Of a DNA stretch of 64,000 nt, positions 28,830-61,166 are shown one piece after another; the stretch's first letter is position 1, and each line of letters starts with the position of its first letter. Source of the stretch: Amycolatopsis coloradensis. Its GTDB lineage: Bacteria > Actinomycetota > Actinomycetes > Mycobacteriales > Pseudonocardiaceae. The notes under the pieces were generated by a model, which had not been told where the DNA came from, made no database searches, and saw only the letters and a list, made by a program, of their open reading frames with translations. The position numbers and the translations under genes were made by a program. The stretch lies in the NCBI RefSeq assembly GCF_037997115.1, contig NZ_CP150484.1:194005-258004 (forward strand), read 5' to 3'.

Positions 28830-29762
28830 ATGGCGGTCCCCGAAACCACCCGGCTGATGCTCGAGCTCGAGGGGACGGTGGAGGAGAACCTCAATCGGCA
28901 TCTCTCGGTCGCCAAGGAATGGATGCCGCACGAGTACGTGCCCTGGGACGAGGGCCGCAACTTCGCCGATCTCGGCGGTGAGGCGTGGGATCCCGAGCAG
29001 TCGCGGGTGTCGCCGATCGCGCGGACGTCGTTGGAGGTCAACCTCCTGACCGAGGACAACCTGCCGAGCTATCACCGCGAGATCGAGCGCGCCTTCGGTC
29101 GCGACGGCGCGTGGGGCACCTGGGTGCATCGCTGGACCGCTGAAGAGGGCCGCCACGGAATCTGCATCCGCGACTACCTGCTGGTGACGCGCGCGGTGGA
29201 CCCGGTCGAGCTGGAGCGCATGCGGATGCAGACCATGCAGGCCGGCTACGACAGCGGCGACAAGGAGCTGCTGAACGTCTTCGCGTACGTGTCCTTCCAG
29301 GAGCTGGCGACGCGGATTTCGCACCGCAACACCGGAAAGTACACGCAGGATCCGCTGTGCGAGAAGCTGCTCGCGCGGGTCGCGATGGACGAGAACCTGC
29401 ACATGCTCTTCTACCGGAACCTGGTGCAGGCGTCGCTGGAGCTTTCACCTGACGCGATGATGCGCGCCATCACCGACGAGGTCGTCCAGTTCCAGATGCC
29501 GGGCGCGGTGATCCCGAGCTTCGTGCGGAAGGCCGCGCTGATCGCGAAGGCGGGCATCTACGACCTGCGCATCCACCACGACGAGGTGATCTGGCCGTTG
29601 CTGCGGCAGTGGAAGATCTTCGAGCTCGAAGGGCTCGGCGAGGTGGGGGAGAAGGCACGGGACGAACTCGACCAGTTCCTGAAGGCCCTCGACACGCAGG
29701 CTTCACGCTTCGAGGAGCGCCGCGCGGCCGCTGAAGCCCGCGCCGCCGCCCGGCACGCGTGA
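28830..29762 (+). CDS. Acyl-[ACP] desaturase (DesA-like, diiron)
   Basis: A 310-residue soluble stearoyl-ACP-desaturase-type enzyme. The diiron ligands fall in TAEEGRHGICIRDYL (EEGRH) and VAMDENLHMLFYRN (DENLH), with a further Glu in LLTEDNLPSYHREIE. It would introduce a double bond into ACP- or CoA-bound fatty acids. GGAAGGA precedes the ATG. The C-terminal ~20 residues are Ala/Arg-rich, and the last codons lie in the first unit of a tandem repeat. Control by the palindrome at 28766-28798 is likely. Confidence 0.93.
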   Translation: MAVPETTRLMLELEGTVEENLNRHLSVAKEWMPHEYVPWDEGRNFADLGGEAWDPEQSRVSPIARTSLEVNLLTEDNLPSYHREIERAFGRDGAWGTWVHRWTAEEGRHGICIRDYLLVTRAVDPVELERMRMQTMQAGYDSGDKELLNVFAYVSFQELATRISHRNTGKYTQDPLCEKLLARVAMDENLHMLFYRNLVQASLELSPDAMMRAITDEVVQFQMPGAVIPSFVRKAALIAKAGIYDLRIHHDEVIWPLLRQWKIFELEGLGEVGEKARDELDQFLKALDTQASRFEERRAAAEARAAARHA

Positions 29763-55880: not shown

Positions 55881-56035
55881 CAATGGCTTGCATTGCCGGA
55901 TTTCGGTAACAGCACAGGTGTCGGCCTCGATCACATGTCGCCGAATTCCGGCAACGGCACCGGCGCGTCGACCCCGACGCGACACCGGGACACCGCCGGA
56001 TCCCCGCCCAGCCCTTGCCGATTTCCGGCAACGGA
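55871..56035. repeat. Four short TTCCGGCAACGG-like repeats
   Basis: Copies: CGATATTCGGCAATGG (55871-55886), CCGGATTTCGGTAACAG (55896-55912), GCCGAATTCCGGCAACGG (55940-55957), GCCGATTTCCGGCAACGG (56018-56035). The last two match at 17 of 18 positions. Confidence 0.5.
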
Positions 56036-56097
56036 GGACCTGCCACAAGCCCCACCGCCCCGAGACACGGTCTGTCACCTCGGCGACCGGCGGGGGG

Positions 56098-56103
56098 CAT
56101 ACT
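56098..56103 (+). promoter_or_regulatory. Leaderless -10 of the reductase-deaminase gene
   Basis: CATACT lies 7 nt before GTG 56111 without a clear separate ribosome site. Confidence 0.4.
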
Positions 56104-56110
56104 GGCGGGC

Positions 56111-57199
56111 GTGATCGAACGCCCTCATGTCCTGCTGTCCGCCGCGGTCTCGCTCGACGGCTACCTCGACGACACGAGCGACACCCGGCTGGTGCTGTCG
56201 AACCAGGAGGACTGGGCCAGGGTGGACGGGCTGCGCGCCGCGTCGGACGCGATCCTGGTCGGCGCGAACACGGTGCGCGCGGACGATCCGCGGTTGCTGG
56301 TGCGCTCGCCGGAGCTGGTCGCGGAACGGGTCGCGGCGGGTCGTCCGGGGCAGCCGGTCAAGGTCACTCTCACGCGGAGCGGGTCACTCGATCCGGCGGC
56401 ACAGTTCTTCACCGTCGGTGACGCCGAAAAGCTGGTCTACGCGCCGCCCGGCGTCGTCACGGGAGTGAAGGCGACCGTCGTCGAGCTGGTGGATCTGCGC
56501 GCGATGCTGGCCGACCTCCACGCGCGGGGCGTCCGGCGGCTGATGGTCGAAGGCGGCGGTGCGATCCACAGCCAGTTCCTCACCGAAGGCCTGGCCGACG
56601 AACTGCATCTGGCCATCGCGCCGTTCTTCGTCGGCGACACGCGCGCGCCGCGGTTCGTCGGCCCGGGGGCCTTCCCGCGCGGGCTGACGCTGACCGGAAC
56701 GACGAGGCTGGGTGACATCGCCGTCCTGGAGTACCACGCGACCCCGGAACCGTCCGAAGTGGACATTCTGCGGCTGCGCGAGGCCATCGCCCTGGCCGAG
56801 AACTGCCCGCCGCGCACGTTCCGCGTCGGCGCGGTCATCGCCGCGGCCGACGGTGAAGTGATCTCCACCGGTTTTTCGGGCGACGGCGATCCCGCCAACC
56901 ATGCCGAAGAAGCCGCCCTCGCCAAACTCGAACCGGGAGATCCGAGGCTGGCGGAGGCGACGATGTACACATCGCTGGAGCCGTGCAGCTCGCGGACGTC
57001 ACATCCGCGAAGCTGCACCCAGCTCATCCTCGACGCCGGCATCCCGCGCGTCGTCTTCGCCTGGCGCGAGCCGTCGGTGTTCGTCGACTGCGTCGGCGCC
57101 GAAACGCTGGAGGAGGCCGGACGCCGGGTGATCGAGGTACCTGCCCTCGCCGCCGACGTCCGCCGCGCGAACACCCACATCCCGGGTGTCCGCCCCTGA
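56111..57199 (+). CDS. RibD-like fusion in reversed order (reductase then deaminase)
   Basis: 362 residues. Residues 1-~215 are a RibD_C/dihydrofolate-reductase-like domain (VLLSAAVSLDGYLDD, DAILVGANTVRADDPRLLVR, RLMVEGGGAIHSQFL). Residues ~220-362 are a cytidine-deaminase-like domain with HAEE (zinc His and catalytic Glu) and PCSSRTSHPRSC (zinc cysteines). Canonical RibD has the deaminase first. It may serve riboflavin or a related pathway (deazaflavin, modified pyrimidine or nucleoside antibiotic). No other rib genes are nearby. Confidence 0.87.
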   Translation: MIERPHVLLSAAVSLDGYLDDTSDTRLVLSNQEDWARVDGLRAASDAILVGANTVRADDPRLLVRSPELVAERVAAGRPGQPVKVTLTRSGSLDPAAQFFTVGDAEKLVYAPPGVVTGVKATVVELVDLRAMLADLHARGVRRLMVEGGGAIHSQFLTEGLADELHLAIAPFFVGDTRAPRFVGPGAFPRGLTLTGTTRLGDIAVLEYHATPEPSEVDILRLREAIALAENCPPRTFRVGAVIAAADGEVISTGFSGDGDPANHAEEAALAKLEPGDPRLAEATMYTSLEPCSSRTSHPRSCTQLILDAGIPRVVFAWREPSVFVDCVGAETLEEAGRRVIEVPALAADVRRANTHIPGVRP

Positions 57200-57203
57200 A
57201 CTC

Positions 57204-57296
57204 CTACTTGCAGGCGTCGCAGCAGCCGCAGCCCAGACCGGTGCACGCCGAGCAGCAACCGTGGCGAAGCACGACCTTCAACAGACGCTTGATCAT
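57204..57296 (-). CDS. 30-residue Cys-rich microprotein
   Basis: Thirty codons from ATG 57296 to TAG 57204. A canonical Shine-Dalgarno GGGAGGA (57308-57302) sits 5 nt upstream. The N-terminus is basic and hydrophobic (MIKRLLKVVLRHG); the second half holds seven Cys in the pattern CCxxC-x4-CxCCxxC, ending in Lys. This suggests metal or Fe-S binding, or a modified peptide. It lies 107 bp downstream of cobN on the same strand, so it may be co-expressed with a cobalt-handling gene. No family is recognised. Confidence 0.65.
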   Translation of the reverse strand: MIKRLLKVVLRHGCCSACTGLGCGCCDACK

Positions 57297-57403
57297 CGCT
57301 GTCCTCCCGATCATTGACGTCCCACCGCCCTTGTCACGCTAAGTTCTGCGCATACGACAGTGGTACCGCCGGGAGTGCCACGGCGCTGCTCCAGCGGGTG
57401 ATG

Positions 57404-60400
57404 TCAGGACTCGAGATCCCCCTCCAGCGATAGGTAGACCTCGCGCAGCTGAGCCAAAAGATCGGCGTCCGGCTCCGCCCACAGCCCCCGATCGGCCGCC
57501 TCGTTCAGCCGCTCGATGATGCCGCGCAGCGCCCACGGGTTGGCCTGGCGCAGGAACTCCTGGTTGACCTCGTCGAGCACGTAGGACTCGGTGAGCTTTT
57601 CGTACATCCAGTCGCCGACCACCCCGGCGGTGGCGTCGAAACCGAAGAGGTAGTCGACGGTCGCCGCCAGCTCGAAAGCTCCCTTGTAGCCGTGCTTGCG
57701 CATCGCCGCCAGCCAGCGCGGGTTGACCACGCGGGCCCGGAAGACACGGGCGGTCTCCTCGCCGAGGGTGCGCGTGCGGACCGCGTCCGGGGTGGTGCTG
57801 TCGCCGACGTAGGACGCGGGCGCGGTCCCGGTCAGCGCACGGACCGTCGCGATCATCCCGCCGTGATACTGGAAATAGTCGTCGGAATCGGCGATGTCAT
57901 GCTCACGGGTGTCGGTGTTCTTGGCCGCGACCACGATCCGCTTGTACGAGTTCTCCATGTCCTCGCGCGCGGGCCTGCCGTCGAGGTCGCGGCCGTAGGC
58001 GAAGCCGCCCCAGACCGCGTAGACCTCGGCGAGATCCTTGTCGTCGCGCCAGTTCCCGGAATCCATCAGCGGCAGCAGGCCTGCGCCGTACGCGCCGGGC
58101 TTGGAGCCGAAGATCCTCGTGGTGGCCCGGCGTTCGTCCCCGTGCGCGGCCAGATCCGCGCGGGTGTGGGCGCGCACGAAGTTCTCGTCGTCCGGCTCGT
58201 CGAGATTCGCCACCAGGCGGACGGCGTCGTCCAGCAAGGTGATCACGTGCGGGAAGGCGTCGCGGAAGAACCCGCTGATCCGCACCGTGACGTCGATACG
58301 CGGGCGGCCGAGTTCGGCGAGCGGGATGGCCTCGATGCCGGTGACCCGTCGCGACGCCTCGTCCCAGATCGGCTGGACACCCAGCAGCGCAAGGACTTCC
58401 GCCGCGTCGTCACCCGACGTGCGCATGGCCGACGTGCCCCACACCGAGAGACCGACCGAACGCGGCCAGTCGCCCGTGTCCTCCCTGTAGCGGCGGAGAA
58501 GCGAGTCCGCGAGCGCCTGCCCGGTCTCCCAGGCGAGACGGCTCGGGATGGCCTTCGGGTCCACGGTGTAGAAGTTGCGGCCGGTCGGCAGGACGTTGAT
58601 CAGGCCACGCAGGGGAGAACCGCTGGGCCCGGCCGGGATGTAGCCGCCGTCGAGCGCGTGGAGCACGGCGTCGATCTCGGCGCCGGTGCCCGCCAGCCGC
58701 GGCACGATCTCGGTGGCGGCGAAGGTCAGCACACGGGCGACCTCCTGGTGTTCCGGCACGTCGGCGACGACCTCGGCGACCGCGCCGGGGGACCAGTCCC
58801 TGGCCTCCATCGCCTCGACGAGCGACCGCGCCTTCTGCTCGATGGCGTCCACTTCGGACAGTGGTGCGTCGCTGTTCTCCTTGAGCCCCAAGGCGGAACG
58901 CAGACCGGGGACCGCGCCCTGTTTGCCGCCCCACATCTGCTGGGCCCGCAGCATCGCGAGTACGAGGTTGATCCGCGCTTCACCGACCGGCGCGGCGCCG
59001 AGGATGTGCAGGCCGTCGCGGATCTGCGCGTCCTTGACCTCGCACAGCCAGCCGTCGATGTGCAGCAGGAAGTCGTCGAACTCGGCGTCGTGCGGGCGTT
59101 CCTCGACACCGAGGTCGTGGTCGAGTTTCGCCGCCTGGATCAGCGTCCAGATCTGCGCGCGGACCGCGGGCAGCTTGGCCGGGTCCATCGCGGCGATGTT
59201 GGCGTGCTCGTCGAGGAGCTGTTCCAGGCGGGCCATGTCGCCGTAGCTCTCGGCGCGGGCCATCGGCGGGATCAGGTGGTCGACGATCGTGGCGTGCGCG
59301 CGCCGTTTGGCCTGCGCGCCCTCGCCGGGATCGTTAATCAAGAACGGGTAGATCAGCGGCAGATTACCCAGGACGGCGTCCGGCGCGCACGAGTCAGAGA
59401 GACCCGCGGTCTTGCCGGGAAGCCATTCCAGCGAACCGTGTTTGCCGAGGTGGACGACGGCGTGCGCGCCGAACTCCTCCTCCAGCCAGCGGTACGCGGC
59501 CAGGTAGTGGTGGCTCGGCGGGAGGTCCGGGTTGTGGTAGATCGCCACCGGGTTCTCGCCGAATCCGCGCGGCGGCTGGATCATCAGGATGACGTTGCCG
59601 GACTGCAGCGACGCCAGGACGATGTCGCCGTTGTCCACATAGAGCTCGCCGGGGGCAGGACCCCAGTGCTCCTCCATGCCCTCGCGCAGCTCCGCGGGCA
59701 GTTCGGCGAACCACTGGCGGTACTTGTCGGCGGGCACGCGGATCGGGTTGCCGGACAGCTGTTCCTCGGTGAGCCACTCCGGATCCTGGCCGCCCGCGGC
59801 GATGAGCGCGTGGATCAGCGCGTCGCCGTCGGGCTGGTCGGTGCCGGTGGGCTCGACGCCGGGGAACGGGTCCTCGCCGAGGTCGTAACCCTGGTCGCGC
59901 ATGCGGCGCAGCAGTTCGATCGCGGACGCGGGCGTGTCGAGGCCGACGGCGTTGCCGACGCGGGAGTGCTTCGTCGGATACGCGGACAGCATCAGCGCGA
60001 TACGGCGCTCCGGCGGGGGAGTGTGGCGCAGCCGGGCGTGCGCGAGCGCGATCTTGGCGACCCGTGAAGCGCGCTCGGCGTCCGGCACGTACTTGGGGAG
60101 GCCGTCGTCGTCGATCTCCTTGAACGAGAACGGGACGGTGATGAGACGGCCGTCGAACTCGGGGACGGCCATCTGGTTGCCCGCGTCGAGCGGGGAGAGG
60201 CCGTCGTCGTTCGCGGACCACGTCTCGCGGTCGCTGGTCAGGCACAGGGCTTGGAGGATCGGGATGTCGAGCGCGGCCATCTCGGCGACGTCCCACGCCT
60301 CGTCGTCGCCGCCCGCGCCGACCTCGGACGGCCGGGTGCCGCCGGCGGCCAGCACGGTGACCAGGAGCGCGTCGGCTTTGGCCAGCTCGGCCATCATCTC

Positions 60401-60985
60401 CGGCTCGCGGGTGCGCAGGGACGCGCAGTGGATCGGGAGCGCGCGGCCCCCGGCGTCCTCGACGGCGTCGGAGAGAGCGTGGACGAACTCGGTGTTGCCG
60501 GACAGGTGATGCGCCCGGTAGTAGAGGATCGCGACGACCGGGCCCTCGGGGCTCTTCGGCTCGCGCTCCAGGACACCCCACAGCGGCTGCACGGCGGGCG
60601 GTTCGAAGCCGTCACCCGTCAGAAGGAGCGTGTCGCTCAGGAAGCGGTGCAGCTGGTTGAGGTTCTCCGGCCCGCCCTGCGCGAGGTACGCGTGCGCCTC
60701 CGCCGCCGTGCCCGCCGGGACCGTCGACAGCTTCATGAGCTGCGCGTCCGGTGTCTGCTCACCACCGAGGACCACCACGTGCGCGCCGCTCGCGCGGACC
60801 GTGTCGAGCCCTTCCTGCCAGCTGCGTTCGGAGCCGAGGATCCGGACGACGACGATCGGGGCGCCGTCGAGCAGGGCGGGCAGCTCGGCCAGATCGAGCC
60901 GGGCGGGGTTCGCCAGCCGGTAGTCGGCCTCGCTGGACCGGGCGCTGAGCAGGTCGGTGTCCGAAGTGGACAGAAGCAGGATCAC
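57404..60985 (-). CDS. cobN: Cobaltochelatase subunit CobN
   Basis: 1193 residues, the large ATP-dependent subunit that inserts cobalt into hydrogenobyrinic acid a,c-diamide in aerobic B12 synthesis. Typical blocks: start ILLLSTSDTDLLSAR, HLGKHGSLEWLPGKTAGLSD, NVLPTGRNFYTVDPKAIPSR, LSVWGTSAMRTSGDDAAEVL. GTG 60985 is preferred (GAGGAA upstream); GTG 60997 is possible. A B12 riboswitch precedes it. CobS/CobT are not in the window; cobG starts at 63543. Confidence 0.96.
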   Translation of the reverse strand: MILLLSTSDTDLLSARSSEADYRLANPARLDLAELPALLDGAPIVVVRILGSERSWQEGLDTVRASGAHVVVLGGEQTPDAQLMKLSTVPAGTAAEAHAYLAQGGPENLNQLHRFLSDTLLLTGDGFEPPAVQPLWGVLEREPKSPEGPVVAILYYRAHHLSGNTEFVHALSDAVEDAGGRALPIHCASLRTREPEMMAELAKADALLVTVLAAGGTRPSEVGAGGDDEAWDVAEMAALDIPILQALCLTSDRETWSANDDGLSPLDAGNQMAVPEFDGRLITVPFSFKEIDDDGLPKYVPDAERASRVAKIALAHARLRHTPPPERRIALMLSAYPTKHSRVGNAVGLDTPASAIELLRRMRDQGYDLGEDPFPGVEPTGTDQPDGDALIHALIAAGGQDPEWLTEEQLSGNPIRVPADKYRQWFAELPAELREGMEEHWGPAPGELYVDNGDIVLASLQSGNVILMIQPPRGFGENPVAIYHNPDLPPSHHYLAAYRWLEEEFGAHAVVHLGKHGSLEWLPGKTAGLSDSCAPDAVLGNLPLIYPFLINDPGEGAQAKRRAHATIVDHLIPPMARAESYGDMARLEQLLDEHANIAAMDPAKLPAVRAQIWTLIQAAKLDHDLGVEERPHDAEFDDFLLHIDGWLCEVKDAQIRDGLHILGAAPVGEARINLVLAMLRAQQMWGGKQGAVPGLRSALGLKENSDAPLSEVDAIEQKARSLVEAMEARDWSPGAVAEVVADVPEHQEVARVLTFAATEIVPRLAGTGAEIDAVLHALDGGYIPAGPSGSPLRGLINVLPTGRNFYTVDPKAIPSRLAWETGQALADSLLRRYREDTGDWPRSVGLSVWGTSAMRTSGDDAAEVLALLGVQPIWDEASRRVTGIEAIPLAELGRPRIDVTVRISGFFRDAFPHVITLLDDAVRLVANLDEPDDENFVRAHTRADLAAHGDERRATTRIFGSKPGAYGAGLLPLMDSGNWRDDKDLAEVYAVWGGFAYGRDLDGRPAREDMENSYKRIVVAAKNTDTREHDIADSDDYFQYHGGMIATVRALTGTAPASYVGDSTTPDAVRTRTLGEETARVFRARVVNPRWLAAMRKHGYKGAFELAATVDYLFGFDATAGVVGDWMYEKLTESYVLDEVNQEFLRQANPWALRGIIERLNEAADRGLWAEPDADLLAQLREVYLSLEGDLES

Positions 60986-61027
60986 AGCATTCCTCACTCG
61001 GGGTGTCCGCGCCCCGGGTCGTGCGGT

Positions 61028-61126
61028 CGCGCCGGCCGGAGTTCCTGGCTTCCCCTCTTCACCGGGAGGGGTGACAGTGGCGGGACCGCCCCGGACTCTC
61101 ACCGGGTTCCTCCACCTGCCGACGCG
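61028..61126 (-). promoter_or_regulatory. Cobalamin riboswitch controlling cobN
   Basis: Read on the minus strand the leader has GGTGAGAGTCCGGGGC (core), GGTCCCGCCACTGT and the B12 box GAAGCCAGGAAC (61052-61041). P1 can form between 61126-61118 (CGCGTCGGC) and 61036-61028 (GCCGGCGCG). The aptamer ends about 40 nt before the cobN start, so B12 binding probably blocks ribosome access or promotes termination. Confidence 0.93.
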
Positions 61127-61166
61127 TGGGTTCTTCGGTTCACTCTCCGGTGCGGTCCGGCGGGAG

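Follow-up and report, generated by a model that had tools for sequence, protein, structure and literature searches.

A cysteine-rich microprotein gene of Pseudonocardiaceae, found beside cobN in Amycolatopsis coloradensis, as a candidate minimal metallothionein-like buffer

Does the short cysteine-rich ORF that follows cobN on the minus strand in Amycolatopsis coloradensis encode a protein of its own, does it belong functionally to cobN, and what could it do? The window, i.e., the whole stretch of 64,000 nucleotides that was analysed, contains the following elements of this ORF:

57204..57296, minus strand: microprotein ORF of 30 aa, MIKRLLKVVLRHGCCSACTGLGCGCCDACK (translation; family matches; codon selection)
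57207..57263, minus strand: Cys core HGCCSACTGLGCGCCDACK, the part kept family-wide (family copies)
57302..57308, minus strand: Shine-Dalgarno GGGAGGA, 5 nt 5' of the ATG (sequence; SD-like site also in relatives)

A first-pass annotation had described this ORF from its letters, and its reading was confirmed exactly to the base. Translation of the minus strand from 57204 to 57296 gives MIKRLLKVVLRHGCCSACTGLGCGCCDACK and a stop (30 codons plus stop), and the GGGAGGA Shine-Dalgarno (SD) is present at 57308-57302 with the described 5-nt spacing. The translation also contains the reported seven Cys within the last 17 residues, in the spacing CCxxC-x4-CxCCxxC, and its core consists of an HxCCxxC and a CxCCxxC unit.

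The microprotein family and selection on the protein

At E<=6e-4, the window peptide was matched in 51 of 60 same-genus genomes (own genome included, counted from the result table), and the same search matched none of 40 other genomes of the order. A family profile of 20 diverse members (A3), used at E<=0.01, matched 261 of 390 Pseudonocardiaceae genomes in 43 of 46 genera, the majority of these 261 places being counted by profile match and not by letter-by-letter reading. The matching genomes included 241 of 338 of good quality and 75 of 80 Amycolatopsis genomes (the latter counted from the table). The best E-value was above 1e-5 in 13 of the 261 matching genomes, and about 4 of the 261 could be chance matches at the threshold. 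The searches scored only some of the candidates in each genome (20 or 32), so the absence from a given genome is soft. Furthermore, an improved profile matched 33 of 249 genomes sampled from the order at E<=0.001; all 33 belong to Pseudonocardiaceae, and none of the 249 matched outside this family.

When the class was searched with an earlier profile, the matches outside Pseudonocardiaceae were all weak. Of eight such loci (L182-L189), five gave translations and none of these contained the core; L182 and L183 are partial look-alikes of it, and L182 has an in-frame stop. In an earlier search of the order, the top match from outside Pseudonocardiaceae (L210) also lacked the core, and the plasmid and phage searches returned one weak, unconvincing match each. 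Among 11 matches that were read, four (L149, L153, L154, and L158) are not members at the reported place, and the least certain member (L152) has a GTG start, a weaker SD, and 37 aa. In a separate observation, each genome of genus g51 has two microprotein copies, located apart from one another (L201, L205, L206, and L214; 23 of 23 g51 rows, counted from the table), and one of these copies lies upstream of a Meth_synt_2 gene. In a 5.8-billion protein set, searches that see proteins of about 24-84 aa sharing short words with the query found the window's peptide itself but no other protein, and the query with a relative gave no match. The microprotein is a conserved family of Pseudonocardiaceae overlooked by annotation; the first-pass annotation had noted that the ORF is short enough for gene callers to miss.

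The family core has the form [C/H]xCCxxC-[T/S]Gxx-CxCCxxC and lies at the extreme C-terminus, followed by 0 or 1 residue. Within about 18 residues it has 7-8 Cys, spaced as CxCC, CC, and CxxC. The fetched loci gave 170 copies (a set that includes repeat fetches of one genomic place), among which the 54-nt core occurs in 66 versions as DNA and in 34 as peptide. Most other genera that were read have eight Cys in two CxCCxxC units. In the Amycolatopsis copies read, except L324, His replaces the first Cys, and L152 from another genus also has His at this position. The N-terminus is variable, being of the MIKRLL type (30 aa), absent (20-22 aa, e.g., MHGCCSKCTGQGCGCCGNCN), or a polar stretch (29-34 aa). 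The length ranges from 20 to 37 aa and is roughly 20-34 aa for most members.

An SD-like site lies 5' of the start codon in 90 non-redundant copies (88 ATG, 2 GTG), and 83 of these 90 sites fall in the top two classes of an ad hoc scale; the start codons were picked by this same scale, so the count is not an independent test. Both the Cys and the SD, the loss of which in relatives would have spoken against the gene, are kept. The proposed comparison of synonymous with nonsynonymous change was also carried out, and in syntenic copies the variable codons are mostly synonymous. By sequence form, the copies were assigned to three groups, whose neighbours were read for the upstream ends of group A, 7 of 17 group B loci, and five group C loci. 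The synonymous proportion of variable codons was 10/12 in group A (orientalis form, 18 copies), 9/17 in group B (other 30-aa forms, 17 copies), and 8/8 in group C (20-aa form, 20 copies). Of the eight residue-changing codons in group B, all but codon 16 are outside the Cys core. Across the copies, Cys codons alternate between TGC and TGT, and the profile alignment keeps both the residues between the Cys and their exact spacing. Pooled substitutions were 81% synonymous vs. 19% expected, a figure that is inflated because the copies were chosen by amino-acid pattern, and the three groups are the fairer test. Selection acts on the protein. Relatives in the genus, family profile matches, and synonymous codon change together place the gene far beyond chance; the microprotein gene is almost certainly real and is presumably translated.

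Neighbouring genes, promoter, and terminator

The surroundings of the ORF in the window contain the following elements:

57404..61102, minus strand: cobN, ORF from the first GTG (Pfam CobN-Mg_chel, 1327 bits); a neighbour in the orientalis clade only
56015..57199, plus strand: RibD_C plus deaminase gene (Pfam), convergent, ending 4 nt from the peptide stop
57336..57341, minus strand: TAGCGT, -10-like block of the conserved promoter (upstream regions)
57362..57369, minus strand: GCGGTACC, 5' block of the conserved promoter, GCGGT, 23 nt, TANNGT (upstream regions)
57395..57401, minus strand: TCACCCG, present once here and twice in other Amycolatopsis groups (read by eye)
57167..57193, minus strand: hairpin 3' of the stop, possible terminator, z ~ -1.4 (folding)

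The placement of the microprotein 3' of cobN on the same strand is correct for the window, where the 3' end of cobN (57404) lies 107 nt upstream. The cobN loci closest to that of the window are from Amycolatopsis of the orientalis/coloradensis/azurea group. By comparing 80 fetched cobN loci, the microprotein was found beside cobN in only 10, all of them orientalis-clade Amycolatopsis, and a position behind cobN fails as a general rule. Synteny with cobN is limited to the orientalis clade; other Amycolatopsis and other genera have different neighbours, and the gene has its own promoter. In the upstream regions compared, the cobN end lies upstream of the microprotein in L001-L017, while in L144 both the gene and its promoter are present and the cobN end is missing. 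Other Amycolatopsis copies are located either close to polA, together with a TetR/ABC-2 pair in convergent orientation, or close to ptpA/SURF1, where genes for NIF3 and an RNase H-histidine phosphatase follow at a greater distance (polA, ptpA, and SURF1 being names that we presume from the sequences). In other genera, a TAP-like hydrolase gene (Pfam) is convergent on the microprotein in four contexts (L203, L206, L209, and L211). No adjacent metal gene was found in most of the contexts read. The position next to cobN is incidental, because the neighbours differ elsewhere. A role in cobalamin synthesis, in which the peptide would supply cobalt to CobN or act as its partner, would fit the same strand, the 107-nt distance in the window, and the 10 shared loci, but 70 of 80 cobN loci have no nearby peptide, yet most Amycolatopsis have it elsewhere; the microprotein's own promoter and its retention in L144 without the upstream cobN end also speak against it. 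On the basis of synteny, we reject a functional cobN link of this kind, and we regard a CobN partner as extremely improbable.

Some further features of the window were observed. A cobalamin riboswitch (RF00174, 41.3 bits) at 61021-61134 on the minus strand overlaps the first GTG (61102) of the cobN ORF, and therefore the true cobN start must be further downstream. In the RibD-like protein encoded at 56015-57199, the reductase domain (residues 37-234) precedes the deaminase domain (254-349), the reverse of the usual RibD domain order. A match to the ASdes sRNA (RF01781, 58 bits, E 4e-11), a family named from tuberculosis bacteria, lies at 29145-29212 on the minus strand.

Upstream of the microprotein, a two-block promoter is kept across genera with differing neighbourhoods: a GCGGT-like block is followed, at a distance of 22-25 nt (exactly 23 nt in 28 cases), by TANNGT. 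It was found in 33 of 52 representatives vs. 0.19 expected (Markov shuffles, maximum 2 in 1000); these representatives are mutually related, and the count is one of conservation and not of 33 independent events. At that spacing, it was absent in 19 of 52. Groups B and C of Amycolatopsis have TCACCC repeats 5' of this promoter. ACTTAGCGTGAC occurs at 16 places in the own genome (G000, <=1 mismatch), and reading of the printed flanks by eye showed a correctly spaced GCGGT block only at the peptide. Behind the stop, folding gave z < -1.5 in 60 of 93 distinct regions (median -2.2), and the window hairpin is weaker than those of most relatives. The conserved promoter and the frequent post-stop hairpins make the microprotein a stand-alone gene, with its own promoter and a probable terminator.

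These contexts also bear on two other functions of a short Cys-rich ORF. The first is a cysteine-responsive attenuator, the translation of which would control a downstream gene, as in the mycobacterial polycysteine short ORFs, a kind of short Cys-rich actinobacterial ORF treated in PMC9094748. Such an attenuator would lie just upstream of the codirectional gene that it controls, and in one genus the next codirectional gene encodes a Meth_synt_2 protein (L201). However, both in the window and in several further contexts, the gene that follows runs towards the ORF from the opposite strand. Four contexts, which rest on crude ORF calls, do have a codirectional gene with a Pfam name at a distance of up to about 300 nt, of a different kind each time, i.e., GH35 (L150), RibD_C (L156), Meth_synt_2 (L201), and an ABC protein (L207). 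The microprotein also has its own SD and often a hairpin 3' of the stop, and the residues between its Cys are kept along with the exact spacing. An attenuator is thus very unlikely. The second function is that of a precursor of a ribosomally made modified peptide (RiPP), one of the first proposals for this ORF, to which a short ORF with a Cys-rich C-terminus would correspond. A leader with nearby modification genes was not found; the forms of 20-22 residues leave no room for a leader, no maturation or transport genes recur in the contexts read, and the microprotein is present in most Pseudonocardiaceae genomes. We consider such a precursor highly improbable.

A palindrome common to peptide and CDF exporter promoters in some clades

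A possible link to metals comes from the promoter region, in which the window contains the following site:

57347..57359, minus strand: TGTCGTATGCGCA, partial and weak match to the CDF-exporter palindrome CAYATGCGCATRTG (sequence comparison)

In the own genome, the palindrome CAYATGCGCATRTG precedes a CDF exporter gene (Cation_efflux and ZT_dimer, Pfam; G000:7600365), and it precedes one likewise at 15 of 28 site loci, as checked with a CDF motif. One genome (G033) has only two sites with <=2 mismatches, of which one lies in the CDF promoter and the other in the peptide promoter. In a genome of another genus (G421), the sole two sites are the peptide promoter, with the exact palindrome, and a CDF promoter. 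In a further genome (G200), the sole site with <=2 mismatches is the peptide promoter. A reversed-pattern control gave up to 4 matches per genome, and sites elsewhere are often due to chance. The significance of the palindrome rests on the position of the sites and not on their number. Moreover, ATGCGCA or its complement was present in 8 of 43 dereplicated peptide promoters vs. 0.9 expected (maximum 5 in 2000 shuffles), while the palindrome core was absent in 35 of 43 representative peptide promoters, including the 20-aa Amycolatopsis group. The palindrome is thus common to peptide and CDF promoters in some clades.

The palindrome or a diverged form of it was also found in the three Rhodococcus plasmid CDF promoters that were read. 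A 41-nt query around the palindrome matched 8 of 72,556 plasmid records, of which seven are Rhodococcus, and the match in a Rhodococcus ruber plasmid adjoins an annotated CDF gene. A match to the operator in a Mycolicibacterium plasmid is intergenic with no CDF gene beside it. As a separate observation, a long palindrome around CACATGCGCATATG is present in the CDF promoters of two actinobacterial families (own genome, 7597400-7603400, L223; Rhodococcus plasmids, L346-L348 and L366). No regulator gene is adjacent at the CACATGCGCATATG palindrome loci. The palindrome CAYATGCGCATRTG (<=2 mismatches) was found at 0 of 30 ArsR-type loci of the own genome G000 (30 fetched of 42 listed). The Zur box tabulated in PMC7174638 does not resemble this palindrome, and that paper gives no SmtB motif for M. 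smegmatis. According to the same paper, SmtB controls zitA with Zn in mycobacteria, and PMC7689651 describes the ArsR-family regulator KmtR as controlling a CDF exporter for Co/Ni in mycobacteria. Because mycobacterial CDF exporters are under such ArsR-family control (KmtR, SmtB), we favour a metal of the Zn/Co/Cd type over Cu.

A redox or Fe-S thiol peptide, the thiols of which would cycle between reduced and disulfide states or hold an Fe-S cluster, beside mycothiol, would agree with the 7 or 8 closely packed Cys and with the fact that the microprotein promoter is unlike the CDF promoter. On the other hand, a palindrome common with a CDF metal exporter in several clades would be unexpected for such a peptide, and no Fe-S or redox gene recurs adjacent to it in the contexts read. 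We consider this function rather unlikely.

A metallothionein-like buffer and known systems

The best explanation is probably a minimal metallothionein-like buffer for metals of the Zn/Co/Cd type. We hypothesize that two CxCCxxC units (HxCCxxC and CxCCxxC in the window), joined by a turn containing [T/S]G, form a thiolate peptide that would wrap a small Zn, Co, or Cd cluster in the cytosol, Cu(I) being possible as well. The peptide would thereby buffer a metal surplus, and in part of the family, the peptide and a CDF-family exporter may be under the same operator. We infer metal binding, the identity of the metal, the regulator, and the buffering role from sequence. Of the earlier proposal of a metallothionein-like Co/Zn binder, the function remains the best guess and has gained some regulatory support, while a connection to cobN is not supported.

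A role as metallochaperone or tiny zinc knuckle, in which the peptide would dock on a partner instead of serving as a bulk buffer, would also be suggested by the very strongly kept core and by the basic-hydrophobic N-terminus, which is likewise kept among the 30-aa Amycolatopsis forms. Other clades lack this N-terminus or have an unrelated one, so that outside the core nothing constant was seen that could serve for docking, and such a role is unlikely.

As expected of a metallothionein, the microprotein is very short and rich in Cys, which are spaced as CC, CxC, and CxxC. None of 20 members matched any Pfam or NCBIfam family at E<=1, named metallothionein families among them, and a PDB sequence search gave no chain at E<=10. 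By its sequence, the anatomy appears metallothionein-like, and the named metallothionein families are not matched. The literature listings covered, on metallothioneins of Amycolatopsis and actinobacteria, small Cys-rich proteins, the palindrome, and metallohistin, showed no description of the microprotein; the survey by Schmidt from 2010, reportedly an in silico survey of actinobacterial metallothioneins, lies outside this scope. It is quite possible, if less than assured, that the microprotein represents a new family of genome-encoded minimal metallothioneins, down to 20 residues, with a doubled CxCCxxC unit, near-universal in Pseudonocardiaceae, invisible to annotation, partly paired with a CDF exporter under one operator, and with a new two-block promoter across genera. 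If so, this antibiotic-producing actinomycete family would have one of the smallest metal-buffering proteins known, missed by annotation, and a natural 8-Cys mini-scaffold for metal-cluster chemistry. It would also allow one to decide clearly whether microproteins of this kind have a housekeeping role, and it would provide an unassigned promoter type as a starting point for finding the regulator.

Bacterial metallothioneins of the SmtA/BmtA type are Cys-rich buffers of about 55 aa with a zinc-finger-like fold, and SmtB-type regulation is their hallmark. The microprotein would resemble them as a Cys-rich buffer, but it differs from their zinc-finger-like fold of about 55 aa and has no Pfam match. 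The copper metallothionein of Neurospora crassa has about 25 aa and 7 Cys in CxC spacing without CxCC pairs. It is alike in being very short with 7 Cys and unlike in being eukaryotic and without CxCC pairs, homology being compared by PDB sequence search only. According to PMC6337107 and PMC10961391, the mycobacterial copper metallothionein MymT is likewise a small Cys-rich actinobacterial peptide with CxC motifs, of 4.9 kDa and under the copper regulator RicR. Unlike MymT, the microprotein mostly has 20-34 aa and a doubled CxCCxxC core, and the sole regulatory link found is to a CDF exporter. The polycysteine leaderless short ORFs of mycobacteria (Canestrari 2020, as cited in PMC9094748) are also short, Cys-rich, and missed by annotation, and they control a downstream gene. 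In contrast to these ORFs as described there, the microprotein gene has an SD and its own promoter, and the gene that follows it converges on it in the window as well as in several further contexts.
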